From Steroidobacter denitrificans (GTDB lineage Bacteria > Pseudomonadota > Gammaproteobacteria > Steroidobacterales > Steroidobacteraceae): a stretch of DNA of 64,000 bases. Both the position numbers and the translations under genes were made by a program. Positions 7,508-26,516 of the stretch are shown one piece after another. The notes under the pieces were generated by a model, which did no database searches, had not been told where the DNA came from, and saw nothing but the letters and a program-made list of their open reading frames with translations. The first letter of the stretch is position 1; each line of letters starts with the position of its first letter. Location of the stretch: contig NZ_CP011971.1 in the NCBI RefSeq assembly GCF_001579945.1, positions 894,001-958,000 of the forward strand, given 5' to 3'.

Positions 7508-7527
7508 ATCGCGCGAGGAGAAACGAA

Positions 7528-8775: not shown

Positions 8776-8801
8776 TCGATTGATTTGGGAGGAGTAAGCA
8801 G

Positions 8802-10120: not shown

Positions 10121-10146
10121 AAGGCGGCGGGTTGATTTTGAACGAC

Positions 10147-10611: not shown

Positions 10612-11056
10612 CGGCATTCCCCTTGAATGAATAAAAAGTTCGCATGAAGGCTCCGGTGGCGCTGGCCACCAGCCGTTGGTGTGGTCCTGAGTGCAGCTCA
10701 CAGCGGACAAAGATGACCGAGCGGGTGACTTGGCAGCAGTCGGCTTCGGCCACCAGATCGTATTTCAGGGGCGCCGACGCCAGGTAATCGACACGCAGAT
10801 CCAGCGTAGACATGGGCTCGGGACGTTCGAGCTGTCGCCCGGCGGCGAGTCCGCAGGCCGTATCGGCCAGACTGAACAGGACGCCGGGAAAGAAATAACG
10901 CGCCTCGGGATCGGCCGCCAGCATCGGCTGCGCGGGAATGCGCATGCGAATTTTTCCGGGCGGCGAATCGAGATCCACTTTCATGCCCACATCCATTGCG
11001 TGCGGCATCTGCTGCTCGATGAGGCGCGCCATATCTTTGATTGATAGTTCGTTCAT
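10595..11056 (-). CDS. PaaI-type hotdog thioesterase
   Basis: 153 residues, distant relative of the gene it overlaps. FFPGVLFSLADTACGLAAG is the central hotdog helix and LDLRVDYLASAP the following strand. The normal His-Gly-Gly before the helix is replaced by FFPGV, so the catalytic arrangement may be altered. First gene of a two-gene minus-strand unit divergent from the crotonase at 11180. Confidence 0.78.
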   Translation of the reverse strand: MNELSIKDMARLIEQQMPHAMDVGMKVDLDSPPGKIRMRIPAQPMLAADPEARYFFPGVLFSLADTACGLAAGRQLERPEPMSTLDLRVDYLASAPLKYDLVAEADCCQVTRSVIFVRCELHSGPHQRLVASATGAFMRTFYSFKGNADERPV

Positions 11057-11076
11057 GCAGTGTCCTTTACGGCATC

Positions 11077-11117
11077 ATAGACCATGCGGACGGCGCCGTA
11101 GTCCAGCATCGGTCTAT
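11077..11117. promoter_or_regulatory. Inverted repeat in divergent intergenic region
   Basis: ATAGACC (11077-11083) pairs with GGTCTAT (11111-11117). The flanking bases nearly extend the symmetry (ATAGACCATGC versus GCATCGGTCTAT, one insertion). It is located between the thioesterase pair (-) and the crotonase (+), so it is a candidate operator or promoter element. Confidence 0.3.
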
Positions 11118-11179
11118 AAGCCAGCGCCGGTTTATATTTCGAGCGGCTGTTCGAGGAGGTTTTCGGTGAGGTTGAAGGC

Positions 11180-11959
11180 ATGAATGCAGCGACTGCACAC
11201 ATCGTCACTGAAAGACTTCAGGGGGTGTTGCGGGTGGAGATCCGCCGCCCGGAGAAAAAAAATGCCCTGACTGCGGCGATGTATGGGCAATTGGCCGATA
11301 TTTTCCAGGACGCTGCCGGCGACAAGGACACCCGTGTGCTGCTGCTCCACGGACAGCCGGGCGTATTCACGGCCGGAAACGACCTCGGCGAGTTCCTGAA
11401 TGATCCGCCCATGAACGAGGATGCGCCGGTCTTTCGGTTTCTAGCGGTCTTCCGGGACTTTCCCAAGCCCTTCATGGCCGCGGTGACGGGACCGGCCGTC
11501 GGCATCGGCACGACGATGCTGCTGCATTGCGATCTGGTCTACGCAGGCGAGGGAGCGAGGTTTCAACTGCCTTTCGTCGGCCTCGGTCTTTGTCCGGAGG
11601 CGGCTTCCAGCCTGTTGCTTCCGGCCTTGGTCGGTCACGCCCGGGCGGCGGAGATCATTCTGCTGGGCGAGCCTTTCGGCGCGCAGCAAGCCCGCGAAAT
11701 CGGTCTGGTCAATGCAGTATTGCCCGATGCCGGACTGCTGGATCATGCGCTTCTCCAGGCCCGCAAGCTGGCGGCGCAGCCTCCGGCGGCGGTGCGGCTG
11801 TCGAAGCAGCTTCTGAAGCGCTCGCAGACGGCCCTGATCGCGGCGGCCATGGAGGAGGAAGATCGGCAGTTCAAGGTGCGGCTGGTTTCGCCGGAAGCCA
11901 AGGAAGCCTTCGGTGCATTTCTGGACAAGCGGCCGCCGGATTTTTCGCAGTTCTCGTGA
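11180..11959 (+). CDS. Crotonase-fold enzyme, enoyl-CoA isomerase (ECI-like)
   Basis: 259 residues. The oxyanion-hole segment AAVTGPAVGIG and HCDLVYAGEGARFQLPF are typical crotonase sequence. The two glutamates of true hydratases are replaced (Thr in the GTTM position, Phe in QLPF), while GLCPEAASS has the Glu that serves as general base in Delta3,Delta2-enoyl-CoA isomerases. I therefore infer isomerisation of a double bond in a CoA ester rather than hydration. It is a single plus-strand gene between minus-strand units. Confidence 0.83.
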   Translation: MNAATAHIVTERLQGVLRVEIRRPEKKNALTAAMYGQLADIFQDAAGDKDTRVLLLHGQPGVFTAGNDLGEFLNDPPMNEDAPVFRFLAVFRDFPKPFMAAVTGPAVGIGTTMLLHCDLVYAGEGARFQLPFVGLGLCPEAASSLLLPALVGHARAAEIILLGEPFGAQQAREIGLVNAVLPDAGLLDHALLQARKLAAQPPAAVRLSKQLLKRSQTALIAAAMEEEDRQFKVRLVSPEAKEAFGAFLDKRPPDFSQFS

Positions 11960-11966
11960 GTCGAGT

Positions 11967-11982
11967 GCCGGGACAGCCCGGC
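11967..11982. terminator. Short GC-rich hairpin between convergent genes
   Basis: GCCGGG (11967-11972) pairs with CCCGGC (11977-11982) around the tetraloop ACAG, in the 25-bp gap between the crotonase (+) and the MaoC/HTD2-like gene (-). Plausible bidirectional terminator; no T run. Confidence 0.4.
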
Positions 11983-11984
11983 CT

Positions 11985-12878
11985 CTACCATGATGCCGTA
12001 GCCTCCATGCATTTTTCTCCGGCAGCCGATTGTGTCCAGCAACGCAGACTGCCGTCGGTCTGACGCCGGCCGCAGACAAGAAATGTTCCGCCGGCAATCA
12101 ACGGGGCGACACCGCGATAGTCGAAGATGCGCGGCGTACCGCCGCCGATCGTGGCCGCGAGATTCAGCAGCAGGCTGGCCTGTAGCGGGCCATGGACGAC
12201 CAGACCTGCGTAACCCTCGGTGCCGGTTGCGTAGGGCAGATCGTAATGGATGCGATGGCTGTTGAAAGTCAGGGCGGAATATCGAAACAAAAGGACGGGC
12301 GATGCCGGTACGCTCCACATCAGATCGCATTGTGGGGCGGGAGCGCTTGTGGCTGCGTCCATGGCGCCTGTTCGAGGCTTGTCCGAGGCCGGGTCTGCGG
12401 CCGGGCTGGAGGCTGGCTTTGCGGCCGGCGGCGCGACGTCCCGATAGACCAGGTCCTGGCGTTCACGGATGGCCGGACCGCGTTCCGTGGTGAACTCGTG
12501 CTCGACGGTGACGAAACAGAGGGTGCCCGAACGGCCTTCCTTGCGGGTGATGGCACCGATCCGGGAGCGACGCATCACCGGGTCGCCCGGTTGCAAGGGG
12601 GCAATCGTTTCCACGCATCCGCCCGCCCACATGCGTCGCGGCAACGGTATCGGCGGCAGGAAATCCCCCGTCACCGGATGGCCGTCGGCGCCGATCCGGG
12701 AGGCCTCGGCGGCTTCGGGTGCAAGACACCAGTGGATCGCCGGCGGTGCCTCGCCGGGCGTGGCGCCGGCGAGATTGGGTGCCAGGGTGGCGCGGTAGGC
12801 GTCGATCAGGCGAGGCGTGAGCGTATCGGCATGCTCGCGAGTGCGGCCGATCCACTGTTCCAGGGCGGAGAGTTCCAA
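11985..12878 (-). CDS. HTD2/mesaconyl-CoA-hydratase-like MaoC-family dehydratase
   Basis: 297 residues with a proposed TTG start at 12878, 10 bp after the stop of the upstream crotonase. This start matches the usual family opening (LEQWIGRT) and avoids a 74-bp overlap from the GTG at 12962. The C-terminal half has the double-hotdog signature FRYSALTFNSHRIHYD with GLVVHGPLQASLL, as in HTD2 and 3-methylfumaryl/mesaconyl-C4-CoA hydratases. The N-terminal half is the MaoC_dehydrat_N-like hotdog. An Ala/Pro-rich linker (about 175-205) separates them. It likely hydrates or dehydrates an enoyl-CoA intermediate. Confidence 0.82.
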   Translation of the reverse strand: MELSALEQWIGRTREHADTLTPRLIDAYRATLAPNLAGATPGEAPPAIHWCLAPEAAEASRIGADGHPVTGDFLPPIPLPRRMWAGGCVETIAPLQPGDPVMRRSRIGAITRKEGRSGTLCFVTVEHEFTTERGPAIRERQDLVYRDVAPPAAKPASSPAADPASDKPRTGAMDAATSAPAPQCDLMWSVPASPVLLFRYSALTFNSHRIHYDLPYATGTEGYAGLVVHGPLQASLLLNLAATIGGGTPRIFDYRGVAPLIAGGTFLVCGRRQTDGSLRCWTQSAAGEKCMEATASW

Positions 12879-12888
12879 GGCGGCGTTC

Positions 12889-13716
12889 TCAATAACCGCT
12901 ATACTTCGGCTCGCGGCCGTCGCGTATGGCGCGGAGCACTTCCTTGGCGTCCTCGCTCGCACTGCATTGCATCATGTTATAGGCCTCGAGTTCGATGACC
13001 TGCTCCAGCGTCATCGATTCCGCGGCATTGAGGCTGCGCTTGATATAGCGGTAAGCCACCGGCGGGCCGCGGTCCAGGCGGTTCGCGAACGCCTGGGTTT
13101 CGGTTTCGAGTTCGGTATCGGGGACGACACGATTGACCAGACCGATGCGCAGGGCCTCATCCGCTGCGATCTTGTCGCCGAGCAGATAGAGCTCCCGCGC
13201 CTTGGCGGGGCCGACGACACGGGGGAGAAGATAACTGCCGCCGAAGTCGCCGGGCCGTGCCGCCCTGACGTAGGCCGTGGCGAACGAGGCCGTCTGCGAG
13301 GCGATGCGGAAATCGCATGCGGCAGCCAGGCACAGACCGGCGCCGACGACAGGGCCGCGCAGCATCGCAATCGTCGGCTTGGGCATGGTGTGCAGCAGGA
13401 TCGGCGATTGGCTGAGCCGCTTGACATGCGAAGCCCGCATGCCGACCGATTTCCACACCGGATCCGCGGACCATCGGACACTGACAGGATCCCCCGCATC
13501 GATCTGTTCGCGGCTGCGCAGATCCCCGCCCGAGCAGAATCCTCGGCCCGTACCGGTCAATACGACGACTCTCACGCCGGGGTCGACGCTGGCTTCTTCC
13601 AGCGCCTCGTTGAGCAGCCGCATCAGCTCCCAGGTCAGCGCATTGAGCTGCGCCGGCCGATTGAGCGTCAGGGTCAGAATGCCCTCGATCTGCTGTTTGA
13701 GCAGCACGGATGTCAT
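12889..13716 (-). CDS. Crotonase-fold enoyl-CoA hydratase/isomerase family protein
   Basis: 275 residues with crotonase landmarks NALTWELM, GRGFCSGGDL and LRGPVVGAGLCLAAACD. The hydratase glutamates are absent (GLCLAAACD; FATAYV). RPGDFGGSYLLPRVVG has an Asp placed like the acid/base of PaaG-type isomerases. Ring-opening or isomerising chemistry on a cyclic CoA ester is therefore possible, but this is inference. It is upstream of and nearly abutting the HTD2-like gene, and preceded by a short ORF. Confidence 0.82.
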   Translation of the reverse strand: MTSVLLKQQIEGILTLTLNRPAQLNALTWELMRLLNEALEEASVDPGVRVVVLTGTGRGFCSGGDLRSREQIDAGDPVSVRWSADPVWKSVGMRASHVKRLSQSPILLHTMPKPTIAMLRGPVVGAGLCLAAACDFRIASQTASFATAYVRAARPGDFGGSYLLPRVVGPAKARELYLLGDKIAADEALRIGLVNRVVPDTELETETQAFANRLDRGPPVAYRYIKRSLNAAESMTLEQVIELEAYNMMQCSASEDAKEVLRAIRDGREPKYSGY

Positions 13717-13859: not shown

Positions 13860-14067
13860 GACGATCCTTCCTGATTGCAATCAGGCTAGTGTCGCAGATA
13901 TTCACACTCATCGTCCATCCGGACTATCGTCTCGTTAGTCCGATCAGACGATGGGGCCGGACGATTCCGGGTCTAGCATGCTGTGTCCGACATCGGCGGA
14001 ACAGTGCATAATTCTTACCGGATCCCGACCACAGCGTACGGATCCTGATCATAGAGGTGATTGTCAG
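13860..14067. promoter_or_regulatory. Divergent control region with a 16-bp palindrome and interlocking dyads
   Basis: Between the crotonase unit (-) and the carboxylase operon (+). CCTGATTGCAATCAGG at 13870-13885 is a perfect 16-bp palindrome that overlaps the minus-strand ribosome-binding site. CGGACTA/TAGTCCG (13920-13926, 13936-13942) and ATCGTCT/AGACGAT (13926-13932, 13946-13952) are two interlocked inverted repeats. A CATAAT hexamer upstream of the carboxylase gene is a weak -10 candidate. Together with the short ORF at 13731-13859 this accounts for the 350-bp stretch without a large gene. Confidence 0.45.
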
Positions 14068-16212
14068 ATGCAGCGATTTCTCGCCGCCTGTGACGCAGGC
14101 GGGACGATGACCGACGTGATCCTTGTCGATGAAACGGGCCGTTCCGTCGTAGGCAAGGCAGCCACTACCCCACACGACGAGAGCATCGGCTACATGGAGG
14201 CGCTTTTCGAGGCGCTCGATTATTTCGAGATTCCCAAGGAAGCGCAGCAAAGCTTCGGAGCTCATCTCGAGACCGCGATCTATACCGGCACCTCGATGCT
14301 CAACTGCGTGATCAATATGTCCGGCTACAAGACGGGCCTGATCACCACGCGGGGCTTCGAGGATATCAATGCCCAGGGCCGCGGCAAGCAGACCTTCATC
14401 GGCCTGCAGTGGTCCGAGATCAGCCACATGCAGTACCGCCGGCATCGCACGCCGCTGGTACCGCGGAAGCTGGCGCGCGGCGTCACCGAGCGCATCGACA
14501 TGTTCGGCAAGGTCATCATTCCACTCTACGAACACGAAGTGGAGCAGGCGGCCCGCGAGCTGATCGTCGATGAGCAGTGCCAGTCGATTGCCATCGTCTT
14601 TCTGCAATCCTACAAGAATGCCGAGCATGAAGAGCGTGCCGAGGCCATTGTGCGAAGCGTCATGCAGAAGGCCGGCCGCGATATCCCGATAGAACTCTCG
14701 AGCCGGGTCGCGCCGACCATGCGCGAGATCTCCCGCGCCAATTCGACCATCGTGCAGGCCTATGCGACCGATCCGGCCCGCAAGCAGCTTTTCCGCATCG
14801 AGGCCGAGCTCAAGAAGATCGGCTACCGGCACAGTCTCAAGACCGTGCTTGGTTATGGTGGCGTGACCAATATTCGCTATCCGCGTCTGTTCGAAGCCGC
14901 CATGTCCGGTCCGGTCGGCGGACTCATGGGAGCGAAATATCTCGGCAGTGTGATCGGCGAGCAGAACATCGTCTGCTCGGACGTCGGCGGCACCTCCTTC
15001 GATGCCGGCTGCATCACGGCCGGCGCCGTGCCGATCGAGCGGGAGCCTGGATTCCAGGACATGTATTTGACGGCGCCGATGCTGAGCATCACTTCGATCG
15101 GTGCCGGAACCGGCACTTACATCCGTATCGATCCGGCCACCAACCGCATCAAGCTGGGGCCTGATTCCGCGGGCGGTACGCCGGGACCGACCTTCATGGA
15201 AGCCGGCAATACCACGCCGACCATCAACGATGCCAATCTGCTCCTGGGCATACTCAACGAGCACAACTATCTTGGCGGCAAGGTCAACGTCAACAAGGAA
15301 ACCTCCTATCGCCTGTTCAAGGAAAAGGTTGCCGAACCGCTGGGTCTCGATGTCTACGATGCCTGCGAAGTCTGTATCGACCTGCTGAACATCCAGATGC
15401 GCGAACATTTGGTGCGCAGTCTCATGGTCGGCCGGGATTTGCGCGACTATGTTCTGCTGGGCTATGGCGGCGGCGGGCCGCTGCACCTCCTGCCCTATGC
15501 GGGCGATCATCCCTATAAAGCCGTGATCACCGTTCCCTGGGCGGGCGGGTTCTCGGCCTGGGGTGGAGCCTGCATGGATTACGCCCATCGGCGTCACAAG
15601 ACGGTATCCGTGGTCGTCGCACCCGACGCCAGCGACGCCGAGCGTCTGGCCGCGGTGCAGCCGATGGTGGAAATCTGGGATCAGCTGCGCAATGAACTGG
15701 TCGAGGAGCTGGTGGCCGAGGGTTTCGCCAAGAATTCCATACGCATTCAACCGGTGGCCTATGTGCGCTACTACGGTCAGCTGGAGGACGTCGAAGTTCC
15801 GCTGCCAGTGGCCAACATCGCCTCGACGAGCGATCTGCAGGCGCTGATCGCGCGCTTCGAGGAAATCTACACGCGCATGTTCACGCTTGCCGGCAAGCCG
15901 GATGTCGGGATCTACCACATCACCGAGGTCTGCGTGGTGGCCACGGTGGAAACCGTCAAGCCGCGGCTGGTCCGCAATGAGCTGGCGGACAAGGCTCCGC
16001 CGGCCAACGCCGTGAAGGGTACGCGCAAAATCTATCAGAAGGGCAAATGGCTGGATGCCAACATCTACAAGATGGAAAACATGCTGCCGGGCAATGAGGT
16101 GGACGGTCTGGCCGTGATCGAGGCCTCCAACACCACTTTGTTTGTTCCACCCGAGTGGCACGTCCGCATCGACGAGTACAACGTCTACTGGATGACGAGG
16201 AAGGATCGATAA
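14068..16212 (+). CDS. Acetone-carboxylase-type ketone carboxylase, beta subunit (HyuA-like)
   Basis: 714 residues from ATG 14068 (AGAGGTGA at 14053-14060). It is a hydantoinase A/oxoprolinase-family ATP-binding subunit, with phosphate-binding motifs CDAGGTMTD (8-16) and SDVGGTSFD (304-312). Length and gene order match AcxA of acetone carboxylase, which splits ATP to phosphorylate ketone and bicarbonate. The next two genes are the matching alpha and gamma subunits, abutting. The family also includes acetophenone and other ketone carboxylases, so the ketone cannot be named. The CoA and hydrotropic genes around it suggest a larger ketone than acetone. Confidence 0.88.
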   Translation: MQRFLAACDAGGTMTDVILVDETGRSVVGKAATTPHDESIGYMEALFEALDYFEIPKEAQQSFGAHLETAIYTGTSMLNCVINMSGYKTGLITTRGFEDINAQGRGKQTFIGLQWSEISHMQYRRHRTPLVPRKLARGVTERIDMFGKVIIPLYEHEVEQAARELIVDEQCQSIAIVFLQSYKNAEHEERAEAIVRSVMQKAGRDIPIELSSRVAPTMREISRANSTIVQAYATDPARKQLFRIEAELKKIGYRHSLKTVLGYGGVTNIRYPRLFEAAMSGPVGGLMGAKYLGSVIGEQNIVCSDVGGTSFDAGCITAGAVPIEREPGFQDMYLTAPMLSITSIGAGTGTYIRIDPATNRIKLGPDSAGGTPGPTFMEAGNTTPTINDANLLLGILNEHNYLGGKVNVNKETSYRLFKEKVAEPLGLDVYDACEVCIDLLNIQMREHLVRSLMVGRDLRDYVLLGYGGGGPLHLLPYAGDHPYKAVITVPWAGGFSAWGGACMDYAHRRHKTVSVVVAPDASDAERLAAVQPMVEIWDQLRNELVEELVAEGFAKNSIRIQPVAYVRYYGQLEDVEVPLPVANIASTSDLQALIARFEEIYTRMFTLAGKPDVGIYHITEVCVVATVETVKPRLVRNELADKAPPANAVKGTRKIYQKGKWLDANIYKMENMLPGNEVDGLAVIEASNTTLFVPPEWHVRIDEYNVYWMTRKDR

Positions 16213-18408
16213 ATGACCAGCCAGCTGAAGCTCAAAGAGCAGCTCAAAGTAAATGATGAGCTGTTCGCGAAAACGGGCTGCATGTTCGGCCTCGAGAAGC
16301 TCACAGAAAAGGAAAACAATCCCGGGCTCTACGAAGCGGTGTGGCATATTCTGCTGAGTGTATGCAATACGGCGTGGGAAGTCGGTTGCAAGGTCTCGGC
16401 CTCGCCGGTCGCCGCAGAGGGCGGCGATGCGCTCTGGGCGCTGCACACCCCGACGGGTGAATGTATTTGTACCTCGTACGGCATCACTGCGCATGTCGGC
16501 TTGCTGGCCGCCATGGTGCGCAAGTTCATCGAGATGGGTTACGAGGATTCGCCGGGCTTCAAGCAGGGCGATATTTTCGAGAACAACGATCCGCACTATG
16601 GCGGCATCCACATGCCCGACATGGATACCGCCATGCCTATCTTTTACAAGGGCAAGCTGGTGGCCTGGGCATCCTCGGTGACCCACGTCGCCGATGCCGG
16701 CGCGGTGCTGCCGGGATCGATCAACTTCATGAATCCCGACACCTTCTCCGACGGCATGCCGGTATCGCTGGAAAGGATCGGTGAGAACGATCGTTACTAT
16801 CCGTGGTATGAACTGCGCATCAAGTCGCGCACGCGGGCGCCGGATTGGGTGCTGGGCGATGCGCGCGGTCGTCTCGCCGGCCTCATCACCGTGCGCGAGA
16901 AGCTGCTGGAGACCATCGAGAAGTATGGTCTGGAATTCTTCGAGAAGGCTTCGCGGGAATATATCGAAGACAGCCGCCGCTATGCGGTGGCGCGCATCCG
17001 CAATCAGGCGGTGCCGGGACGCGTGCGCAAGTCGCAGTTCAAGGATCTGACCTTGAAGGGCAAGGTCGTCATCATGCCCAAGCAGGATATCGACCTGCTG
17101 TCCAATGTGCCGATGGAAATGCGCATCGATGCGAATGCCAATGTACACCTGTCTCTTGCCGGGGCCAGCGGCAGCGTACCCTTCGGCCAGAATATCACCC
17201 CGACGGCGTTGTCCTCCGCGCTGCTCATGGGCTATTCGCATGTCGTGGGCTTCGACATGTTCAACTCGGGGCCGACTTTTGCGCTGACGGTCGATACGCC
17301 GCCGCCGGGCTCGTGGTGCAATCCCTTCCCGGTCGACTGGTTCGCCTCCACCGGCATGGGCTGGTCATCGGCGATTCGCTGGCTGAGTTCGCTCTACGAA
17401 GTCACGGGACGGCTGTATTACATGCGTGGTTTCGTGGAGGAGATGTCCGCCGGTGCGGGCACCACCATGGCAGCCGAGTGGCATGGCACCAATCAGTACG
17501 GGCAGTATGCCGTTTGCCTGACGCTCGAGCAGGCCAGCAACGGCTCTCCGGCGCGCGGCATCGCCGACGGAGAACCAGCCGCCTGGTGTCTGTATACCGC
17601 GAACGCCGACTTCGGCAATGCCGAGGTGATGGAGCTGTATTATCCCTTCATGTATCTAGGCCGGAACATGGAGCCGGATTCGGGCGGCTATGGCAAGTTC
17701 CGCGGCGGCATGGGCCATACCACGGTATGGATGGTGATGAACACCCCGGAGATCCATTATTCGGCGGCCTGCGCCGGCGCAAACAGCAAGATCACGGCCA
17801 ATCACGGCATGTACGGCGCATATCCGATGCCCGGCGATCGGGTTGCCTATGCGGCCGGAACCAACGTCAAGGAATTGATCGAACAACGTAAGCCGCTGGT
17901 GCATGAGCGCGGCCTGGATCCCGATTATCCGACACTGTCCCAAAATATCGTGGCGGATGTTCTGAACAACGATGTCGTCGTTCCCGCAAACATTCCCGAG
18001 ACGCTGCACGAGTACGATCTCGTGATCAATCCGACCTCGGGCTCCCAGGCCATGGGGGATCCCATCGAACGGGATCCGGCGCTCGTCAAGGACGACCTTG
18101 ACAAGGGGTTGACCCGGCCCTGGGTGGCCGAGAACATCCACGGTGTCATTGCCCGCAAGGAGGCCAACGGCGATTGGCTCGTGGATGAGGATGCGACGAC
18201 GGAGAAGCGCCGTCTCATATGCGAGGCGCGCAAGCAGCGCGGCGTACCTTTCAGAGAGTGGTGGCAGCAGGAGCGCAAGCAGATCGTGGCGGGCGCGAAC
18301 ATGGATGAAGCCGTGAAGCGAATGTGGCGCAGCTCCATGAAGCTGTCACCCGGATACGCGGCCGAACTGCGCGCGTTCTGGAACCTCCCTGCCGATTTTG
18401 AATTTTGA
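16213..18408 (+). CDS. Acetone-carboxylase-type ketone carboxylase, alpha subunit (HyuB-like)
   Basis: 731 residues, ATG directly after the TAA of the beta subunit gene. HyuB-family protein carrying the carboxylation site. H133, D136 and H158 have the same 3- and 22-residue spacing as the three Mn ligands reported for Xanthobacter AcxB (as recalled, H150, D153, H175), within NDPHYGGIHMPDMD and SVTHVADAG, so the metal site looks intact. Length is close to AcxB. The predicted reaction joins a phosphorylated enol and carboxyphosphate to give a beta-keto acid. Confidence 0.88.
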   Translation: MTSQLKLKEQLKVNDELFAKTGCMFGLEKLTEKENNPGLYEAVWHILLSVCNTAWEVGCKVSASPVAAEGGDALWALHTPTGECICTSYGITAHVGLLAAMVRKFIEMGYEDSPGFKQGDIFENNDPHYGGIHMPDMDTAMPIFYKGKLVAWASSVTHVADAGAVLPGSINFMNPDTFSDGMPVSLERIGENDRYYPWYELRIKSRTRAPDWVLGDARGRLAGLITVREKLLETIEKYGLEFFEKASREYIEDSRRYAVARIRNQAVPGRVRKSQFKDLTLKGKVVIMPKQDIDLLSNVPMEMRIDANANVHLSLAGASGSVPFGQNITPTALSSALLMGYSHVVGFDMFNSGPTFALTVDTPPPGSWCNPFPVDWFASTGMGWSSAIRWLSSLYEVTGRLYYMRGFVEEMSAGAGTTMAAEWHGTNQYGQYAVCLTLEQASNGSPARGIADGEPAAWCLYTANADFGNAEVMELYYPFMYLGRNMEPDSGGYGKFRGGMGHTTVWMVMNTPEIHYSAACAGANSKITANHGMYGAYPMPGDRVAYAAGTNVKELIEQRKPLVHERGLDPDYPTLSQNIVADVLNNDVVVPANIPETLHEYDLVINPTSGSQAMGDPIERDPALVKDDLDKGLTRPWVAENIHGVIARKEANGDWLVDEDATTEKRRLICEARKQRGVPFREWWQQERKQIVAGANMDEAVKRMWRSSMKLSPGYAAELRAFWNLPADFEF

Positions 18409-18418: not shown

Positions 18419-18973
18419 ATGGCCGAGTATGACATTTACGACGTCGAGGACATCCGCAAGCTGGTAGACGGGGAGCTTCCCTGGACCACTGTCCAGCAGA
18501 TGATGAAGAACGGCAAGGATCGCGACCGCTTCGACAAGTGGCTCGTGATCCTGCAGGGGCGGGTGCCCTGGAAGGAGAAGATTCTGTTGCCGCTGACCCC
18601 GGCGCTGTTCATCGTGCAAAAGCCGAAGGAGCGCGTGGTGAAATGCCGTTGCGGGCATGAGTTCGGCGATTATCGCGTCAACTGGAAGCTTTCGGCGCTT
18701 ATCTACGTGCGCGATAGCGACGAGAAGATCTCCGAGGTGTATCGCGGCCATGAAAAGCCCGACACCGAGTGGATTCAGTTGCGCGAATATTACTGCCCCG
18801 GTTGCGGCTCGCAGCTGGAAGTGGAAGCCATGCCGCGCGGCTGTCCGCCGGATTTCGAATTCCTGCCCGATCTCGACACCTTCTATCGGGAATGGATCGG
18901 CCGGCCGCTGCCCGAGACGGTCGAATTCGTCGATCGGACGCCGGAGCGAATCAAGGAGTGGACGTCTCGATAG
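18419..18973 (+). CDS. Acetone-carboxylase-type ketone carboxylase, gamma subunit
   Basis: 184 residues from ATG 18419, right behind GAGGAGG; this is better supported than the in-frame start at 18398. Two metal-binding knuckles, CRC (76-78) and CPGC (126-129), match the small zinc-binding gamma subunit of acetone carboxylase (AcxC-like), a fold seldom found elsewhere. Its presence distinguishes this system from hydantoinases and oxoprolinases, which have only A and B subunits. Confidence 0.9.
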   Translation: MAEYDIYDVEDIRKLVDGELPWTTVQQMMKNGKDRDRFDKWLVILQGRVPWKEKILLPLTPALFIVQKPKERVVKCRCGHEFGDYRVNWKLSALIYVRDSDEKISEVYRGHEKPDTEWIQLREYYCPGCGSQLEVEAMPRGCPPDFEFLPDLDTFYREWIGRPLPETVEFVDRTPERIKEWTSR

Positions 18974-19114: not shown

Positions 19115-20296
19115 ATGGATTTCGAATTTTCTTCGGAGGAACGCCGCTTCCTGGCAGAGGTGGACCAGTTCCTGCAGGATAACTATGACCCCAAGGCCAT
19201 GGACGTCACGCGCGAGAACATGGCGCAGATCTGCGATACACCGGAGCGCCGGGCGTTCGCCAGAAAGCTTGCCAAGAAAGGCTGGCTGGGGATCACCTGG
19301 CCGAAAGCATACGGTGGACAGGAAGGCAGGGGCTTCTACGAGTATCTGTTGAACGAGAAGCTGTCTTCCGTCGGCGCGCCGCAAATCGGCAAGGGTGTCG
19401 GGATCATCGGCAAGACCTTGATCAAGGTCGGTTCGGAAAAGCTCAAACAGGAGTTTTTGCCGAAAATCCTTAACGCCGAAATCGAATTCGCAGTGGGCTA
19501 CTCCGAACCCTCGGCGGGCTCGGACTCCGCCGCCATGCGCCTGAAAGCGGAGCGCCGCGGCGATGGTTGGGTGCTGAACGGACAAAAGGTGTTCAGCACC
19601 TCGGCGCACTTTGCCGACTGGTATTGGGTCGGCGCACGCACCGACCCGGAGGCGCCCAAGCATCATGGCATCACCCTGTTCCTGGTTCGCATGGACGATC
19701 CGGGACTCACGCTGCATGCCATGCCTACGATGGGCGGGGAGCGCACCAACGCGGTGTTCTTCGACGATGTATTCGTACATGACGACTATCGGGTCGGCCA
19801 GCTCAACAAGGGCTTCCAGTACATCGCCGAGGCGCTCGATATCGAGCGCTTCACCATGTTCACCTTTTCACCGATTCGCGCCCGGGTTGAACTGCTGTGC
19901 GACTATGTGAAGCAGGCCACGCAGGATGGCAAGCCTCTGAAGGAGGATCCCGTCATACGCCAGCGGGTGGCGCAGCTCGCCACCGAGTGCGAGGTGGCAC
20001 GGCTGCTCGGCGTACGCTTCGTCGATTCCGCCCTCGATGCTTCGAAAACCCCGACGGTGCCGGCTTCGGAGTACAAGCTTTATGCCACCGAGCTGTCGCG
20101 CCGTGTGGCCGACGCCACCATGGATATCGCCAGCCCGGGTTCGCAGCTAGCCTTGGGTACCGAGGATGCGCCGCTCAAGGGTCGCGCGGAAAGCTGCTAC
20201 ACCTATACGGTGATCGACACCATCGGCGGCGGCTCCTCGGAGGTGCAAAAGAACATCATCTGCAAGCGCAAGCTTGGGCTGCCGCCGAACTTCTAG
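19115..20296 (+). CDS. Acyl-CoA dehydrogenase
   Basis: 393 residues. N-terminal helical domain (MDFEFSSEERRFLAEV), FAD/substrate strand region VGYSEPSAGSDSAAM and TSAHFADWYWVGART, and C-terminal helical domain ending IGGGSSEVQKNIICKRKLGLP, the flavin-contacting tail. It introduces an alpha,beta double bond in an acyl-CoA. A second, divergent dehydrogenase lies at 22543; such unlike pairs often form alpha2beta2 complexes acting on steroid or isoprenoid CoA esters (ChsE-type), which the flanking MaoC pair also recalls. Confidence 0.92.
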   Translation: MDFEFSSEERRFLAEVDQFLQDNYDPKAMDVTRENMAQICDTPERRAFARKLAKKGWLGITWPKAYGGQEGRGFYEYLLNEKLSSVGAPQIGKGVGIIGKTLIKVGSEKLKQEFLPKILNAEIEFAVGYSEPSAGSDSAAMRLKAERRGDGWVLNGQKVFSTSAHFADWYWVGARTDPEAPKHHGITLFLVRMDDPGLTLHAMPTMGGERTNAVFFDDVFVHDDYRVGQLNKGFQYIAEALDIERFTMFTFSPIRARVELLCDYVKQATQDGKPLKEDPVIRQRVAQLATECEVARLLGVRFVDSALDASKTPTVPASEYKLYATELSRRVADATMDIASPGSQLALGTEDAPLKGRAESCYTYTVIDTIGGGSSEVQKNIICKRKLGLPPNF

Positions 20297-20311: not shown

Positions 20312-21472
20312 ATGGCATTGCTCAGCGGTTATAAGGTTCTGGATCTCGCCAGTGTGGGGCCCGCGGCGCGCGCCTCGCGTATCCTGGCTGATTACGGCAT
20401 GGACATCATCAAGGTCGCGCCGGTCTCGGCCAAGGGAGCCAAGCAGATCGAGCCCGTGTTCCATGCCTATGGCGCAGGACGCGGTACCCGGCAGATCCGT
20501 GTGGATCTGAAGTCGCCGGAGGGCAGGCGAGCCGTCGAACGGCTCGTCGAAGGCGTCGATGTGGTGATCGAAAGTTATCGCCCCGGCGTGGCGCACCGGT
20601 TGGGCGTCGGCTACGAGGATCTCAGGGCGATCAATCCCAGGATCGTTTATTGCTCGACCAGCGGTTACGGCCAGGATGGGCCCTGGTCGCAATGGGCGGG
20701 TCATGACATCAACTACGTGGCGGTCAGCGGCTACCTGGCCTGCAGCGGCCGCGATGCCGAGGGCCGCCCCGCCATGCCGGGAGCCACAGTCGGCGACAGC
20801 GCCGGAGGCGGCATGCAGGCGGCATTGGCCGTGATCGCCGCGTTGCTGCATGTGGCGAAGGGGGGTGAAGGCCGGCATCTCGATGTATCGATCACCGACG
20901 GCATGCTCAATCTGATGTCGCTGTATATCGATCGGTTCCTGGCGACGGGCGAAGAGACCCATCCGGGTTCCGATGTGCTGACGGGCAGGTACGCCTGGTA
21001 TGGCGTTTACACTTGTGCAGACGGGCGATATGTCTCGATCGGCCCGGTCGAGGGGCATTTTTTCAAAAACCTTTGCCGCCTGCTGGAGCTGGAGCAGTAC
21101 AGCGCCAGCCAATATGACGATGCCAAACAGGACGAGATGCGTGCGGCGTTCGCGCAGCGCTTCCTGACCAAGGAGCGCGATGCCTGGGTGGCTGCACTCG
21201 CCGGCCAGGATACCTGCCTGGCGCCGGTGCTTTCGATCGCCGAGGTTGCAGCGAGTCCGCATCTGCGGGCGCGCCGGAGTTTCATGCGTGCGCGCCATGC
21301 CGAGCGGGGCAGCTTCGAGCAGCTCGCGCCGGTATTGGCCGGCGGTGAGCGGCAACAGCCCGAACATCAGGTGCGTACCGCCGGCACGACGGATACGGAG
21401 ACCGTACTGGCGGCGGCAGGATTTTCCACCGACGAAATCGCGGAGTTGCGCCGTTGCGGCGCGGTCGAGTAG
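20312..21472 (+). CDS. CaiB/BaiF family protein, alpha-methylacyl-CoA racemase-like
   Basis: 386 residues, single-domain family III protein. WAGHDINYVAVSG with H131, and GDSAGGG with D162, correspond to the His/Asp acid-base pair of alpha-methylacyl-CoA racemase; GHDINY is a strong racemase signature. It probably epimerises a 2-methyl-branched acyl-CoA so that a stereospecific acyl-CoA dehydrogenase can act, as in steroid side-chain or pristane breakdown. A CoA-transferase role remains possible because the same Asp serves both chemistries. Confidence 0.8.
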   Translation: MALLSGYKVLDLASVGPAARASRILADYGMDIIKVAPVSAKGAKQIEPVFHAYGAGRGTRQIRVDLKSPEGRRAVERLVEGVDVVIESYRPGVAHRLGVGYEDLRAINPRIVYCSTSGYGQDGPWSQWAGHDINYVAVSGYLACSGRDAEGRPAMPGATVGDSAGGGMQAALAVIAALLHVAKGGEGRHLDVSITDGMLNLMSLYIDRFLATGEETHPGSDVLTGRYAWYGVYTCADGRYVSIGPVEGHFFKNLCRLLELEQYSASQYDDAKQDEMRAAFAQRFLTKERDAWVAALAGQDTCLAPVLSIAEVAASPHLRARRSFMRARHAERGSFEQLAPVLAGGERQQPEHQVRTAGTTDTETVLAAAGFSTDEIAELRRCGAVE

Positions 21473-21512: not shown

Positions 21513-22037
21513 GTGACAGAGATAGCGAGTGATCTGCCTGCAGTAGTGCGCGAGCTGATCGGCAAGCCGCACTACGTGGAGCAGACCGAGTTTCCCATCG
21601 AAATCGGCTACGTCTATAACATGTGCGCGGCGGTACAGGACGGTAATCCGCTGTACTGGGATCCGGAAGCGGCACAGGCCATCACCGGTGGGCAGATCGC
21701 ACCGCCGGCGATGTTGTCGGCCTGGTTCAAACGGCATCATTGGATGCCGGGCGCCGAGGGCGATCGCAAGCCGATGCAGCTGTATTTCGACATCAAGGAT
21801 ATGGTCGGCCTGCCCGAGGGTATCGTCGCCAGCAACGAAGTAAGCTTCGGCGAGCCGGTGCGTATCGGCGATATACTGACCACCAGCCAGTACTGCCGTT
21901 CACTGGGTGAACTCAAAGACACCAAGCTCGGCCGCGGCCGCTTCTGCACCATGGATGTCGTGACGGTCAATCAGCACAACGACTGGTGCGGCACCGATAC
22001 CTATCATTTCCTCATCTACATCAAGGGTGCCCGATGA
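21513..22037 (+). CDS. MaoC_dehydrat_N-type hotdog protein
   Basis: 174 residues, GTG start behind AGGAG. It has the FAS1-like/MaoC N-terminal dehydratase fold pattern (GGQIAPPAMLSAW, SNEVSFGEPVRIGD). The typical catalytic Asp-His pair is not evident, so it is probably the non-catalytic partner of the next protein. Genes of this kind next to a second MaoC protein form heteromeric enoyl-CoA hydratases such as ChsH1/ChsH2. Its stop overlaps the next start (ATGA). Confidence 0.8.
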   Translation: MTEIASDLPAVVRELIGKPHYVEQTEFPIEIGYVYNMCAAVQDGNPLYWDPEAAQAITGGQIAPPAMLSAWFKRHHWMPGAEGDRKPMQLYFDIKDMVGLPEGIVASNEVSFGEPVRIGDILTTSQYCRSLGELKDTKLGRGRFCTMDVVTVNQHNDWCGTDTYHFLIYIKGAR

Positions 22038-22516
22038 GCACCGTGCGCAATCTGACTTTCGGCGAAGTCGAAGAGGGCCAGGAGCTGCCGCCGCTGACGT
22101 ATCCGGTGACGGCCACCACGGTGGTGCTCGGAGCGATCGCCAGCCGCGACTGGCGGCCCATGCACCACGATCGGGATTTCGCGATCAACCGCAGCGGTAC
22201 TAAGGACATCTTCATCAATACGCCGACCAACGCCGCTTGGTTCCAGCGTTTCGTGACCGATTGGACGGGCCCCAAGGGGCGGCTCGGCAAAATGAAGTTC
22301 AAGATGAAGATTCCGGTATTTCCCGGTGACGCGATGACTCTGTCGGGCCGTGTGACACGCAAGTCGGTGGATGATACCGGCTGTTGCTGGATCGATCTCG
22401 ATCTCGCCGTGTCGGTGGGCGACAAGCTGAATACCGAGTGCCAGGCGCGCTTCGCGCTGCCTGCCGATGCCGACGATAACCCCTGGCAACGCCGCGGCGA
22501 ACGCTGGCGGCCCTGA
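22034..22516 (+). CDS. MaoC-like enoyl-CoA hydratase
   Basis: 160 residues from the ATG at 22034, which overlaps the stop of the upstream MaoC gene by 4 bp; an in-frame upstream start lies inside that gene. DWRPMHHDRDFA contains the Asp/His of the hydratase motif (D-x4-HxD-like), and KMKIPVFPGDAMTLSGRVTRK is the family's C-terminal strand. It is inferred to be the catalytic half of a heteromeric hydratase acting after the acyl-CoA dehydrogenases. Confidence 0.82.
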   Translation: MSTVRNLTFGEVEEGQELPPLTYPVTATTVVLGAIASRDWRPMHHDRDFAINRSGTKDIFINTPTNAAWFQRFVTDWTGPKGRLGKMKFKMKIPVFPGDAMTLSGRVTRKSVDDTGCCWIDLDLAVSVGDKLNTECQARFALPADADDNPWQRRGERWRP

Positions 22517-22542: not shown

Positions 22543-23706
22543 ATGGATCTGAAATTCACCGATGAACAAAACATGCTGCGCGAGACGACTCGAGCGCTAT
22601 GCCGCGACACGAGCGGCGTGGACGTCGTGCGGCAGATGGAGAACGATCCTCTCGGCGTGCCCGAGAAGCTCTGGGCAAACATGCGGGAAGCCGGGTTGAC
22701 GGGGATTCTCGTACCCGAGCAGTACGGCGGCCTGGGGCTGGATCAGCTGAGCTGCGTGGTCATCTATGAGGAACTCGGGCGGGCGCTGGCTCCGGGACCG
22801 CATTTTGGCTCTGCAGTCATGAGCGTGCTGGCGCTGCGCGAAGCCGGCAGTGCGGCACAGCAGGAGGCATTGCTGCCGGGGCTCGCCAGTGGAGAGACCA
22901 TCATCGTGCCCGCCTGGCTCGAACCGGATCGCGGCTACGGTCCCGAGGGCGTGCGGCTCGTGGCCAAGCGCAGCGGCGAGGATTATCGGTTGACGGGTAT
23001 CAAGCGCCACGTGTTCCATGCCAAGGCGGCCGAGAAGCTCCTGGTGCTGGCCCGCACGGGTGAGGGCGCCGATGGAATCGACCTGTTCCTGGTGGATACG
23101 AACGCCAAGGGCCTCACGCTCGAACAACAAAAAAGCATGGCTTCCGATACCCAGTATCGCGTCGCTTTCGACGACGTCGTGGTGTCGGCCGCCCAGCGCC
23201 TGGGGGCTTCCGGCTGCGGCTGGCGCAGTTGGGAGGCGGCCATGTACCGCGGCATCGTTCTGCTGGCTGCCTTTGCCGCCGGCGGGGCGGAGCGGGCACT
23301 GGAAATCACGGTGCAGTACTCGAAGGATCGCCAGCAGTTCGGCAAACCCATCGGCGCCTTCCAGTCGCTCGCCCACTACATGGCGGATGCCAGTCCGGTA
23401 TCCGAGGGAGCGAAAATGCTGGCCTACGAGGCAGCCTGGGCGCACGATCAGGGCAAGGATATTCTGCGTCTGGCACCGATGGCGAAGCTGTTTTGCTGCA
23501 AGGCATTCCGCGACATCACGCATATGGCCCAGCAGGTGCACGGCGGAATCGGCTTCACGCTGGACTACGATATCCAGCTCTATTACCGCCGGGCCAAGCA
23601 GCTGCAGCTGAACTGGTGGGATTCGCGCTATCTGGAGAAACTGATCGCCGCGGATGTGCTCGACCGGCCGAACGTGCGCACCATAGCCGATCCATTTACG
23701 CCCTGA
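22543..23706 (+). CDS. Acyl-CoA dehydrogenase
   Basis: 387 residues behind GAGGAA. Sequence landmarks are MDLKFTDEQNMLRETTR, the YGGLGLDQL core helix, and a C-terminal domain with YSKDRQQFGKPIGAFQSLAHYMAD and QQVHGGIGFTLDYDIQLYYRRAK. It differs clearly from the dehydrogenase at 19115 and may be its heterotetramer partner. Immediately followed by the nitronate-monooxygenase-like gene. Confidence 0.92.
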   Translation: MDLKFTDEQNMLRETTRALCRDTSGVDVVRQMENDPLGVPEKLWANMREAGLTGILVPEQYGGLGLDQLSCVVIYEELGRALAPGPHFGSAVMSVLALREAGSAAQQEALLPGLASGETIIVPAWLEPDRGYGPEGVRLVAKRSGEDYRLTGIKRHVFHAKAAEKLLVLARTGEGADGIDLFLVDTNAKGLTLEQQKSMASDTQYRVAFDDVVVSAAQRLGASGCGWRSWEAAMYRGIVLLAAFAAGGAERALEITVQYSKDRQQFGKPIGAFQSLAHYMADASPVSEGAKMLAYEAAWAHDQGKDILRLAPMAKLFCCKAFRDITHMAQQVHGGIGFTLDYDIQLYYRRAKQLQLNWWDSRYLEKLIAADVLDRPNVRTIADPFTP

Positions 23707-23717: not shown

Positions 23718-24701
23718 GTGCCAGTCCTGTCATCGATCAAGGATCAGCTGACACTGCCGGTGCTGTGCTCGCCGATGTTCATCGTGTCGACGCCGGCGCT
23801 GGTGTTCGCGCAATGCACGAACGGCATCATCGGCTCCTTCCCCGCGCTGAACGCACGCGGGGAAGGCATGCTCGAGGAATGGCTGACCGGCCTGGAGCAG
23901 CAGCTGGAAATCCATCGCGCGGCGAATCCGGAAAAAAAGGTCGCGCCGTTCGCCGTGAATCAGATCGTGCATCAGAGCAATACGCGTCTGGATGCGGATT
24001 TCGATGTACTGGAAAGGCACAAGGTGCCGCTGGTCATCACCAGCCTGCGTGCGCCCACCGAGTATGTGCCGCGCATTCATGCCTGGGGCGGGCGGGTATT
24101 GCACGATGTGACCAATATCCGGCATGCGGAAAAGGCGCTGGAGGCGGGCGTCGATGGATTGATCCTGGTCTGCGCGGGTGCCGGCGGACACTCGGGCGCA
24201 CTCAGCCCGATGGCGTTGGTGAGCGAAGTGCGGCGCATCTACGACGGCCTGGTGGTACTGGCCGGCAGCATCACCCGGGGTGAGCATATTCTGGCGGCGC
24301 TGGCGATGGGTGCCGACCTGGCATATATGGGCACGCGCTTCATCGCCACCGAGGAGGCGAATGCGGTACCGGATTACAAGCGCATGATCGTCGAGGCAGG
24401 CGCCAGCGACATTCTGTATACGCCTTACTTCTCCAGCACCCACGGCAACTACCTGAAACCTTCCATCCGCGCTGCCGGCCTGGATCCCGACAATCTGGTG
24501 CGCGCGCCGGGCGAAACCGCAAAGATGGCCTTCATCAGCGCCGATGGTTCCCGCAGCGTGGGGGTCAAGACCTGGAAGGACATCTGGAGCGCCGGTCACG
24601 GTGTGGGGGCCGTCGATGACATCCCGTCCGTAACCAAACTGGTCGCGCGTCTGCAGACACAGCTCGCTGCAGCGCGGGCACATCTGTGCGCATCGCTGTA
24701 A
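23718..24701 (+). CDS. Nitronate monooxygenase-family flavoprotein, IpdC-like
   Basis: 327 residues from GTG 23718, 11 bp after the upstream stop. FMN-binding TIM barrel of the 2-nitropropane dioxygenase family: LPVLCSPMFIVS, CAGAGGHSG (active-site His segment) and VVLAGSITRGEHILAALAMGADLAYMGTRF. In steroid ring C/D catabolism a family member, IpdC, acts as a hydroxyacyl-CoA reductase and its gene lies beside ipdAB; the fused IpdAB-like gene next door suggests the same kind of role here. A true nitronate monooxygenase is less likely in this context. Confidence 0.82.
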   Translation: MPVLSSIKDQLTLPVLCSPMFIVSTPALVFAQCTNGIIGSFPALNARGEGMLEEWLTGLEQQLEIHRAANPEKKVAPFAVNQIVHQSNTRLDADFDVLERHKVPLVITSLRAPTEYVPRIHAWGGRVLHDVTNIRHAEKALEAGVDGLILVCAGAGGHSGALSPMALVSEVRRIYDGLVVLAGSITRGEHILAALAMGADLAYMGTRFIATEEANAVPDYKRMIVEAGASDILYTPYFSSTHGNYLKPSIRAAGLDPDNLVRAPGETAKMAFISADGSRSVGVKTWKDIWSAGHGVGAVDDIPSVTKLVARLQTQLAAARAHLCASL

Positions 24702-24725
24702 TGGAGGCGGCGCGAGGAGGTTCTC

Positions 24726-26516
24726 TTGAGTTTGTGGCGTGAGATCGTTGCCCGGCGCATAGCCACCCTCCACGACAGCGCAGCGGACAAGCGCATGGAT
24801 CTGGCGGCGGCGATTCGGCGCTTCGTCCGGCCGGGGATGAAGATCAATCCTGTGACCATGCAGGCGCGGCCGCAGGCGGCCATGTATGAACTTTGTCGCC
24901 AGTTCGCCGGGACCCGGCCGGGCTTCGAGTTCGTTTCCTCGGCGCTCAGCGGCAGTTATCTGCAGCTGGCGCATCTTGGGCTGCTCAGGAAGGCCGTGGT
25001 GTCGTTCGCCGGTGAGGGATATCCCACTCCGGGCCCCAGCCCCGTGACGCGCTGGGCCCTGGAGCGCGGCGATTTCGAGCTCGAAAACTGGACCATGCTG
25101 ACCATCTCCCAGCGTCTGCTGGCGGGCGCCATGGGAGTGCCGTTCCTGACCACCCGTTCCCTGATCGGCAGCTCCCTGGCCGAGGAGCGGCAGACGGCAG
25201 GCGGCTACGCCGAGCTGCCCGATCCGTTCAACCCGGGACAGGTTCAGGGTGTCATCAGCGCCTATCAACCGGACATTGCCTTCGTGCATGTCTGGGCGGC
25301 GGATCGTGCGGGCAATGCCGTTTGTTTTCCTCCGTATCAGGAAAACATCTATGGCGCGCTGGCGGCGCGACAGGGCGTGGTGCTTACGGCTCACCAGCTG
25401 GTGTCCACGGAGTTCATCCGCCGATATTCGCATCTGGTGCGCATTCCCGCCGAGATCGTGCTGTCGGTGAGCGAGGTACCCTACGGGTCGCACCCCTACG
25501 GCAACTACAGCGCAGGTATCCCGGAATTGCGCGCTTATGCCAACGACTACAGCTTCATGAAGGAGCATCGCGAAGCGCAAGGCAGCCGGGAGCGATACGA
25601 TGCCTGGATTCGAGAGTGGATACTCGATAGCGCAGACCAGGATGCTTATCTCGCAAAAGTCGGCGACGAACGCTTGCGGGCGCTGCATCGGGCCGCCGAG
25701 CCTGACGCCTGGCAGGACGAGTTGGAACTTCACTCGGAATCCTTGGACCAGGTGCGCAGGGGGGGTAACGTCGAGGAAATGATCGTCCAGGCGTCCCGCG
25801 AAGTCGCCAAGCGTATCGTCGACAACGGCTACAAAACGGTGTTGGCCGGGGCGGGGCAGGCCTCGCTCATGTGCTGGCTGGCCGCTCATCGGCTGCGCGA
25901 GGAGGGCGTGGAATTTGCCCTGCTCGCCGAAACCGGCATGTACGGCTTCGATCCGCGGCCGGGCGATCCTTTCCTGACCAGCTATCGCAATCTTCCCACC
26001 TGCACCTTGCTGACGGATGTCTTCGAGGCGCTTGGGCTGCACGGCTGCGGCGGCGTCAATGCCTGCATGGGCACCATCGGCGCCGGTGAGATCGACAAGT
26101 ACGGCAACGTCAATTCGACGCGCACTGCCACGGGCGAATTCCTCGTCGGCTCGGGGGGCGCCAACGACATCGTCACCTCGGCCGCCGAGACGGTGGTGGT
26201 TGCGGCTCAGCGGACCCAGACCTTCGTGGAGAAGGTCGGCTATGTGACCAGTCCGGGCGCCAAGATCCGCTGTGTCATCTCCACCATGGGCCGGTTCGAA
26301 AAACTGGACGGCGATGAACTGGTGCTCACCGGGTATCTTCCCGCCGCGGGCCGCGATCGCGAGCAGGCCATCGCGCAAATTCGCCGGCGCTGTGGCTGGG
26401 AGCTGAAGGTTGCCGATCAGGTCGAGGCGCTTCTACCGGCGAGCGAGGAAGACCTGGCCTTGCTCAGACTGTTCGATCCCGAACGCTTCTTTTTGGGCAA
26501 GCCGGCCGACAAATAG
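24726..26516 (+). CDS. Fused class I CoA-transferase-family protein (IpdA-IpdB-like)
   Basis: 596 residues, TTG start with GGAGG upstream. The first half (about 28-300) resembles the alpha subunit and the second (about 350-560) the beta subunit of glutaconate CoA-transferase/IpdAB, usually separate genes. E402 in LLAETGMYG sits where true class I CoA-transferases have the catalytic Glu of the SENG motif; IpdAB hydrolases are reported to lack that Glu. DKYGNVNSTRT and GSGGANDIVTSA are typical beta-subunit motifs. It may be a CoA-transferase or a C-C hydrolase opening a cyclic beta-keto acyl-CoA. It is the last gene of the operon. Confidence 0.82.
   Translation: MSLWREIVARRIATLHDSAADKRMDLAAAIRRFVRPGMKINPVTMQARPQAAMYELCRQFAGTRPGFEFVSSALSGSYLQLAHLGLLRKAVVSFAGEGYPTPGPSPVTRWALERGDFELENWTMLTISQRLLAGAMGVPFLTTRSLIGSSLAEERQTAGGYAELPDPFNPGQVQGVISAYQPDIAFVHVWAADRAGNAVCFPPYQENIYGALAARQGVVLTAHQLVSTEFIRRYSHLVRIPAEIVLSVSEVPYGSHPYGNYSAGIPELRAYANDYSFMKEHREAQGSRERYDAWIREWILDSADQDAYLAKVGDERLRALHRAAEPDAWQDELELHSESLDQVRRGGNVEEMIVQASREVAKRIVDNGYKTVLAGAGQASLMCWLAAHRLREEGVEFALLAETGMYGFDPRPGDPFLTSYRNLPTCTLLTDVFEALGLHGCGGVNACMGTIGAGEIDKYGNVNSTRTATGEFLVGSGGANDIVTSAAETVVVAAQRTQTFVEKVGYVTSPGAKIRCVISTMGRFEKLDGDELVLTGYLPAAGRDREQAIAQIRRRCGWELKVADQVEALLPASEEDLALLRLFDPERFFLGKPADK

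Follow-up and report, generated by a model that had tools for sequence, protein, structure and literature searches.

We tentatively propose that a 596-residue protein of Steroidobacter denitrificans, in which both halves of a family I CoA-transferase are joined in one chain, belongs to the glutaconate CoA-transferase (GCT) branch and loads CoA onto a beta-keto acid within a ketone-carboxylation gene cluster, en route to HIP. The gene lies in a 64,000-nucleotide stretch of contig NZ_CP011971.1 (894-958 kb; hereafter the window, to whose numbering coordinates refer unless stated otherwise) and follows a flavoprotein gene. CoA-transferase chemistry is likely, as predicted from a conserved active-site glutamate and from the closest sequence relatives, and a link between the cluster and anaerobic steroid breakdown is probable, though held with slightly less assurance.

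A single-chain protein, probably of the glutaconate CoA-transferase branch

The two genes are:

23718..24701, plus strand: flavoprotein of the NMO/FabK type, 327 amino acids, GTG start
24726..26516, plus strand: fused GctA-GctB-type protein, 596 amino acids, TTG start; Glu402 codon at 25929-25931

A strong ribosome-binding site, AGGAGG, lies upstream of the TTG start. Both the A and the B domain of a CoA-transferase are present in the fused chain, as judged by profile matches (the N-terminal half matches Pfam CoA_trans) and by the fold of the C-terminal half, and an AETG motif at residues 401-404 contains Glu402. In these respects open reading frames and alignments confirm a first-pass annotation of the window, which had described an IpdC-like flavoprotein followed by a one-chain IpdA-IpdB-like protein with AETG at the catalytic glutamate position. 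NCBIfam assigns no family to the protein. A phmmer search of the Protein Data Bank (PDB) gave GctA as the best match (E = 8e-21) and GctB at E = 2e-7, while a profile built from 12 sequences matched GctA at 8e-47, IpdA at about 1e-21, and GctB at 2e-19.

Two other explanations of the fusion were rejected: i) a read-through or frameshift artefact, because all 12 homologues examined are fused and open; and ii) a fused succinyl-CoA:3-ketoacid CoA-transferase (SCOT) or acetate CoA-transferase, because the 12-sequence profile matched SCOT only at about 1e-13, compared with 8e-47 for GCT, and the succinyl-CoA:acetate type reached E = 0.1 with phmmer and was absent at E<=0.01 with the profile. The grouping with fused acetate/propionate CoA-transferases that the first-pass annotation had named as a refuting outcome was thus not found.

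The glutamate and the fold

Glu402 is invariant in the 12 fused homologues. A profile search pairing the C-terminal half with GctB places it on the Glu of IVESG; it also aligns with the CENG Glu of CtfAB (residue 46, counted from the printed alignment), a position whose mutants are entitled in the PDB 'E46S active site mutant inactive' and 'E46D active site mutant hydrolase'. Profile-profile comparison with the B subunits of two-gene relatives (99.9% probability) pairs AETG with YESG. In an alignment of 24 B sequences, GctB and every one of the 12 fused proteins have Glu in this column, as do 8 of the 10 two-gene B subunits, the other two having a gap and a Ser. The genome's own IpdB has Ser there, and Rhodococcus jostii RHA1 IpdB, according to a paper, has Gly57, in keeping with the earlier statement that IpdAB lacks the CoA-transferase glutamate.

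The A side differs as well. Between the two IpdA sequences deposited as 6co6 and 6coj there is a Glu to Ala change, at what we take to be a catalytic residue; the equivalent in the fused chain is Met124, and the fused proteins have Met, Ile, Leu, or Asn at this position (Glu in 0 of 12). Judged by residues, the fused enzyme therefore looks like a transferase and shows neither of the two IpdAB signatures, and Glu402 occupies, by alignment, the CoA-transferase active-site position; the outcome in which this residue falls outside the active site did not occur in the sequence or profile comparisons.

Maximum-likelihood trees of both halves (23 rows per half, without the L027 pair) split off the 12 fused proteins, with full or almost full branch support, as a clade apart from both the genome's own IpdAB and GCT, the Ipd rows being long branches; the phylogeny suggested in the first-pass annotation as a check thus yields a single fused clade. 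Structure prediction, also suggested there, succeeded in part. The fold of the C-terminal half was recovered (pLDDT 73.9), with GctB as top structural match (Z 18.0, rmsd 3.5 over 218 residues, 20-24% identity in the structural alignment) and IpdB within 1 of it at Z 17.4-17.6, which is a tie. The three-dimensional surroundings of Glu402 were not recovered: residues 70-110, just behind Glu402 (residue 68 in this model), fall below pLDDT 50, so that the position given for Glu402 comes from alignment rather than from the model. A whole-chain model from six sequences (mean pLDDT 56.7, residues 401-445 below 50) was not used.

That shared fold also suits a different reading, in which the fused enzyme would be a ring-opening beta-ketoacyl-CoA hydrolase of the IpdAB or BadI kind with Glu402 as general base, and its target could be the C1/C5 beta-diketone of ring B or a cyclic beta-ketoacyl-CoA derived from a carboxylated, CoA-loaded ring ketone. 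The CtfAB E46D title indicates that this site can hydrolyse, and the fused genes of R. jostii RHA1 plasmid pRHL3 and Azoarcus KH32C follow a short-chain dehydrogenase/reductase (SDR) gene amid acyl-CoA dehydrogenase (ACAD), crotonase, and thiolase genes, where the SDR could make a ring beta-ketone. We nevertheless regard a hydrolase as unlikely: Glu stands in every fused protein where IpdB has Ser or Gly, the IpdA Glu changed in 6coj is missing from all of them, and the genome has an IpdAB of its own. A chain without CoA-transferase activity, such as a decarboxylase or a simple thioesterase that shares the fold, would have a precedent in AibAB, which like GCT is close in both fold and sequence, but AibB has Cys56, a residue varied in its PDB entries, at what we presume to be the position equivalent to the invariant Glu, and such a chain seems very improbable here. 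Of the options raised in the first-pass annotation (CoA-transferase, ring hydrolase, or an intermediate), we now favor the CoA-transferase on the strength of the retained Glu402 and the GCT-branch match.

Among other Gammaproteobacteria, several of the same family, we also observed two-gene GctAB-like pairs (L002, L005, L022, L037, L038, L040, L041, and L043) that keep the Glu in 8 of 10 examined, despite possible annotation as IpdAB, and of which 7 of 10 have His where IpdA has its Glu; by these residues they look like another uncharacterised transferase group.

The gene pair is distinct from the ipd genes

A canonical ipdA-ipdB-ipdC-echA20 cluster lies at about 81-94 kb of the genome, roughly 800 kb from the window. 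Its order is IpdA-like, IpdB-like, two open reading frames, NMO, crotonase, two ACADs, thiolase, SDR, two ACADs, and SDR, in agreement with loci 00310 to 00370 in Table 1 of PMC5380842 (Steroidobacter denitrificans). The fused gene thus stands outside the ring C/D (HIP) cluster of ipdC, echA20, and fadE32. Its flavoprotein neighbor matches Pfam NMO (E = 2e-24) and has a FabK-type enoyl reductase as best PDB match, but is only 30% identical, over just 139 amino acids, to the genome's IpdC-like protein, whose gene adjoins an echA20-like gene. A flavoprotein 84-87% identical adjoins the fusion in two Steroidobacteraceae metagenome-assembled genomes (MAGs). The IpdC-IpdAB identity first given to the pair was therefore rejected: with a separate ipd cluster, Glu402 kept, the IpdA Glu absent, and so little identity to IpdC, the two genes encode neither IpdAB nor its IpdC.

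A probable ketone-carboxylation gene cluster

The catabolic cluster starts at 466 and comprises, upstream of the gene pair:

466..3951: divergent AraC-type regulator and TonB-dependent receptor (named by eye; syntenic in genome G347), opening the cluster
4004..13716: upstream part, with luciferase-like (LLM) oxidoreductase, tandem CaiB fusion, MFS, SnoaL, SDR, two thioesterases, two enoyl-CoA hydratases, and fused MaoC; syntenic in G347
14065..16212, plus strand: hydantoinase A/carboxylase beta-type subunit (HydA); reading frame open from 13951
16213..18408, plus strand: acetone carboxylase alpha-type subunit (HydB); 5m45_A, E = 6e-107
18422..18973, plus strand: acetone carboxylase gamma-type subunit (AcxG); 5svb_C, E = 2e-44
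19115..20296, plus strand: acyl-CoA dehydrogenase 1 (ACAD1); best PDB match 6wy8 chain B (Tcur3483), then 4x28
20312..21472, plus strand: CaiB-family protein, closest to alpha-methylacyl-CoA racemase (MCR; 1x74, E = 2.7e-63)
21513..22037, plus strand: FAS1-dehydratase-type hydratase subunit
22031..22516, plus strand: MaoC-type hydratase subunit
22543..23706, plus strand: acyl-CoA dehydrogenase 2 (ACAD2); second-best PDB match 6wy8 chain A (Tcur3481)

Genes for alpha-, beta-, and gamma-type subunits of an acetone carboxylase are together, with HydB and AcxG aligning to acetone carboxylase alpha and gamma over nearly their full length. Consecutive genes from HydA through the fusion are spaced by 0, 13, 141, 15, 40, -7, 26, 11, and 24 bp, so closely that the genes from 14065 to 26516 can be one transcript; a scan for promoters and terminators gave no more than expected. 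The next gene, YggS-like by eye, begins 232 bp downstream of the fusion, and past 26516 the window turns to other genes, likewise recognised by eye. The CaiB protein at 20312-21472 resembles MCR (E = 2.7e-63) far more than the best-matching CoA-transferase (5.8e-40) and has in common with MCR an aGHDINY stretch that is presumably catalytic. The two ACADs match the chains of the Tcur3483/Tcur3481 complex, which we take to be a steroid side-chain dehydrogenase.

Several features of the upstream part deserve separate mention. The tandem fusion at 5033-7507 (824 amino acids, two family III CaiB CoA-transferase units) is the second fusion in the cluster; unfused homologues of its halves lie side by side beside the genome's own ring C/D cluster (L076:17582-19999, 50 and 58% identity) and also in G299. 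The luciferase-like protein at 4004-5023 passes the NCBIfam threshold for the F420-dependent family TIGR03617; one relative adjoins AcxG in a Halieaceae MAG and another lies, by eye, upstream of an AtcA-like gene. Overlapping minus-strand gene pairs occur at 11985-13716 and 10147-11056 (74 and 116 bp) in an otherwise plus-strand cluster, and the starts of these genes may be wrong. Near the cluster end, the reading frame at 27666-28376 resembles, by eye, a REP-associated (Y1-type) transposase.

Relatives and their neighborhoods

Full-length homologues of 31-84% identity, fused in all 12 cases examined, come from several phyla: Steroidobacteraceae MAGs (84%), the Halieaceae MAG (69%), a Proteobacteria MAG (64%), a Myxococcales MAG (62%), a Dehalococcoidia MAG (42%), and plasmids of Rhodococcus, Azoarcus, and Streptomyces (31-38%). 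In the Halieaceae MAG the fusion is directly upstream of HydA-HydB-AcxG. Its neighbors elsewhere are a CoA ligase (L031), an ACAD and a crotonase (L032), an SDR, an ACAD, and a crotonase (RHA1 pRHL3 and KH32C), or a P450 and an aldehyde dehydrogenase (Rhodococcus). On a plasmid of Streptomyces sp. NBC_00388 (L046), the fused gene is found among ketosynthase and AfsA-like genes, a context that suggests biosynthetic rather than degradative use.

Synteny with G347 runs from AraC through HydB at 66-91% identity. The order ACAD1-CaiB-FAS1DH-MaoC-ACAD2-crotonase-CaiB-HydA-HydB-AcxG is kept in G328, on a contig with neither NMO nor fusion, and the module from ACAD1 to ACAD2 is present in G422 and G423, two fusion-bearing genomes with no carboxylase in the neighborhood of the fusion, on contigs other than that of the fusion. 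Plasmids yielded HydB matches of at most 32.2% identity among the best 15 of 874 records and AtcA matches of at most 38.5% among the best 6 of 1021, all below 60%.

Co-occurrence with anaerobic steroid degradation

The genome encodes one MoCoBD_1 protein, which we infer to be the molybdenum subunit, AtcA, of 1-testosterone hydratase/dehydrogenase. Of 148 relatives, 4 have a HydB orthologue (E<=1e-100), and all 4 are among the 6 with an AtcA-like protein of at least 57% identity (hypergeometric p = 8e-7, a value that, like the one for a stricter cut below, overstates independence because the 148 genomes are related). Beyond this family, an AtcA-like protein (68%) is likewise encoded in the Halieaceae MAG that has the fusion and HydB; among its 195 relatives HydB is found once, in the MAG itself, which is one of four with an AtcA-like protein of at least 66%. 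AtcA-like proteins at E<=1e-200 occur in 1 of 369 class genomes. ACAD1 was searched for in ten genome or plasmid records in addition to its own genome. Every genome whose fusion is at least 62% identical (six, own genome included) has it at 62% identity or more, compared with a base rate of 1 in 369 class genomes at E<=1e-140; G328, G299, and G359 gave matches too, whereas the two plasmid records gave none. In G299 an ACAD1-CaiB-hydratase-ACAD2 module is about 9 kb from an AtcA-like gene, with an electron transfer flavoprotein subunit and a thiolase-family gene between them.

A proposed route to HIP

Androstan-1,3,17-trione is hydrolysed to DSAO, which after CoA activation is proposed to undergo an aldolytic reaction to 2,5-seco-3,4-dinorandrost-1,5,17-trione (2,5-SDAT), according to PMC6208644; the later steps of ring B, and with them the way in which denitrifying bacteria take apart rings A and B and break C9-C10 without O2, are in the words of a review 'so far unknown reactions'. 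The name of 2,5-SDAT implies two ketones flanking C10, a methyl ketone (C1, C2) and one at C5. We suggest, as a possible but somewhat doubtful sequel, that the butanone side chain of the opened A/B rings is carboxylated, CoA-activated, and removed as propionyl-CoA to give HIP, which would explain how the C9-C10 bond is cut without O2. Specifically, i) hydrolysis of the 2,5-SDAT beta-diketone at C5-C10 would open ring B, leaving the HIP propanoate and a CH(CH3)-CO-CH3 group on C9; ii) HydA/HydB/AcxG would carboxylate the methyl ketone at C2 to a beta-keto acid; iii) the fused enzyme would transfer CoA to this acid, Glu402 attacking an acyl-CoA donor to form an acyl-glutamyl anhydride and then a glutamyl-CoA thioester from which CoA passes to the carboxylate, giving the beta-ketoacyl-CoA; iv) a thiolase encoded elsewhere would release acetyl-CoA and leave an alpha-methyl-branched C9-CH(CH3)-CO-CoA; v) the racemase-like CaiB, the ACAD pair, and the hydratase pair would generate a C9 tertiary alcohol; and vi) a retro-aldol reaction would free propionyl-CoA, leaving the C9 ketone of HIP. 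In its last three reactions the route would mirror the known way in which the isopropionyl side chain at C17 is removed.

Gene order, homology, the glutamate seen in the alignments, and co-occurrence are the observations behind this scheme, and from them we infer the CoA-transfer activity, its substrate, the order of the steps, and the participation of a thiolase and an aldolase. Every enzyme class of the route except thiolase and aldolase is encoded in the window; for removal of the C17 side chain the genome appears to have other genes, such as that for a lipid-transfer-protein-type thiolase at L074:13395-14585. The luciferase-like protein and the tandem CaiB fusion have no step in the scheme. 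The word 'carboxylase' occurs 0 times in the passages of PMC5554518, PMC9980454, PMC8399759, PMC7448270, and PMC12507874 that we consulted, and our literature search, which did not cover the pathway papers of 2013-2016, found no connection of acetone carboxylase with Steroidobacter denitrificans, testosterone, or anaerobic steroids.

We wish to set out the observations that weigh against the proposal, beyond the relatedness of the 148 genomes: i) the cluster lacks genes for a thiolase and an aldolase, and the NMO has no role in the scheme; ii) the AtcA label was given because the protein is the only MoCoBD_1 protein of the genome, with no named record behind it; iii) at a stricter AtcA cut of at least 80%, 3 of the 4 HydB carriers fall within 5 genomes (p = 7e-5); iv) G328 has the carboxylase and the module, yet no fusion orthologue in its genome; v) fusions elsewhere lie beside SDRs, CoA ligases, or P450s with no carboxylase nearby (for G422, G423, and G424 this refers to the neighborhoods of the fusion only), so that the fused family is not tied to carboxylation but serves several degradation routes, the present member being the one linked to a ketone carboxylase; and vi) genomes with an AtcA-like protein often lack HydB (2 of 6 relatives, and 3 of 4 in the Halieaceae set at 66% or more), so that the carboxylase is not obligatory for the anaerobic steroid pathway and marks a subset.

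This last pattern is what one would expect of an optional peripheral route, in which the CoA-transferase would serve another methyl ketone, either a pregnane of the progesterone kind, with its C20 ketone, or a ketone that is no steroid, such as a terpenoid. Acetone carboxylase-type enzymes act on methyl ketones, which also suits such substrates. We think this rather unlikely, however, because the racemase-like CaiB and the ACAD pair fit an alpha-methyl-branched CH(CH3)-CO-CoA unit, which a C20 ketone would not yield on carboxylation and thiolysis, and because both HydB lineages examined also carry AtcA-like proteins. Carboxylation of the butanone side chain, if true, would place a CO2-fixing step in anaerobic steroid degradation, and the cluster constitutes a gene-level proposal for dismantling rings A and B and cleaving C9-C10 without O2. 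The uncharacterised fused GCT-type branch spans Proteobacteria, Myxococcota, Dehalococcoidia, and Actinomycetota, and since it keeps the Glu, inspection of such residues can tell likely transferases apart from hydrolases of the IpdAB type.

Comparison with known systems

Four systems invite comparison. i) GctAB of Acidaminococcus fermentans (PDB 1poi) is the best sequence match of the fused chain, matches both halves nearly end to end, tops the fold list for the C-terminal half, and has its active-site Glu in E-x-G, but consists of two subunits rather than one chain and has another operon context. ii) The COCHEA-CoA hydrolase IpdAB (PDB 6co6, 6co9, 6coj, and 6con) has the same fold, an IpdA-type N-terminal half is recognisable with the profile, and the organism here is also a steroid degrader, whereas the fused chain keeps the B-side Glu, is without the IpdA Glu of 6coj, and is encoded outside the HIP cluster. 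iii) Acetone carboxylase AcxABC (PDB 5m45 and 5svb) has the same three-subunit make-up, but the carboxylase of the cluster is divergent in sequence and is followed by genes for CoA-transferase, ACADs, racemase, and hydratase. iv) Tcur3483/Tcur3481 (PDB 6wy8) has two chains that ACAD1 and ACAD2 match, but here the pair is linked to a carboxylase in a cluster without an aldolase.

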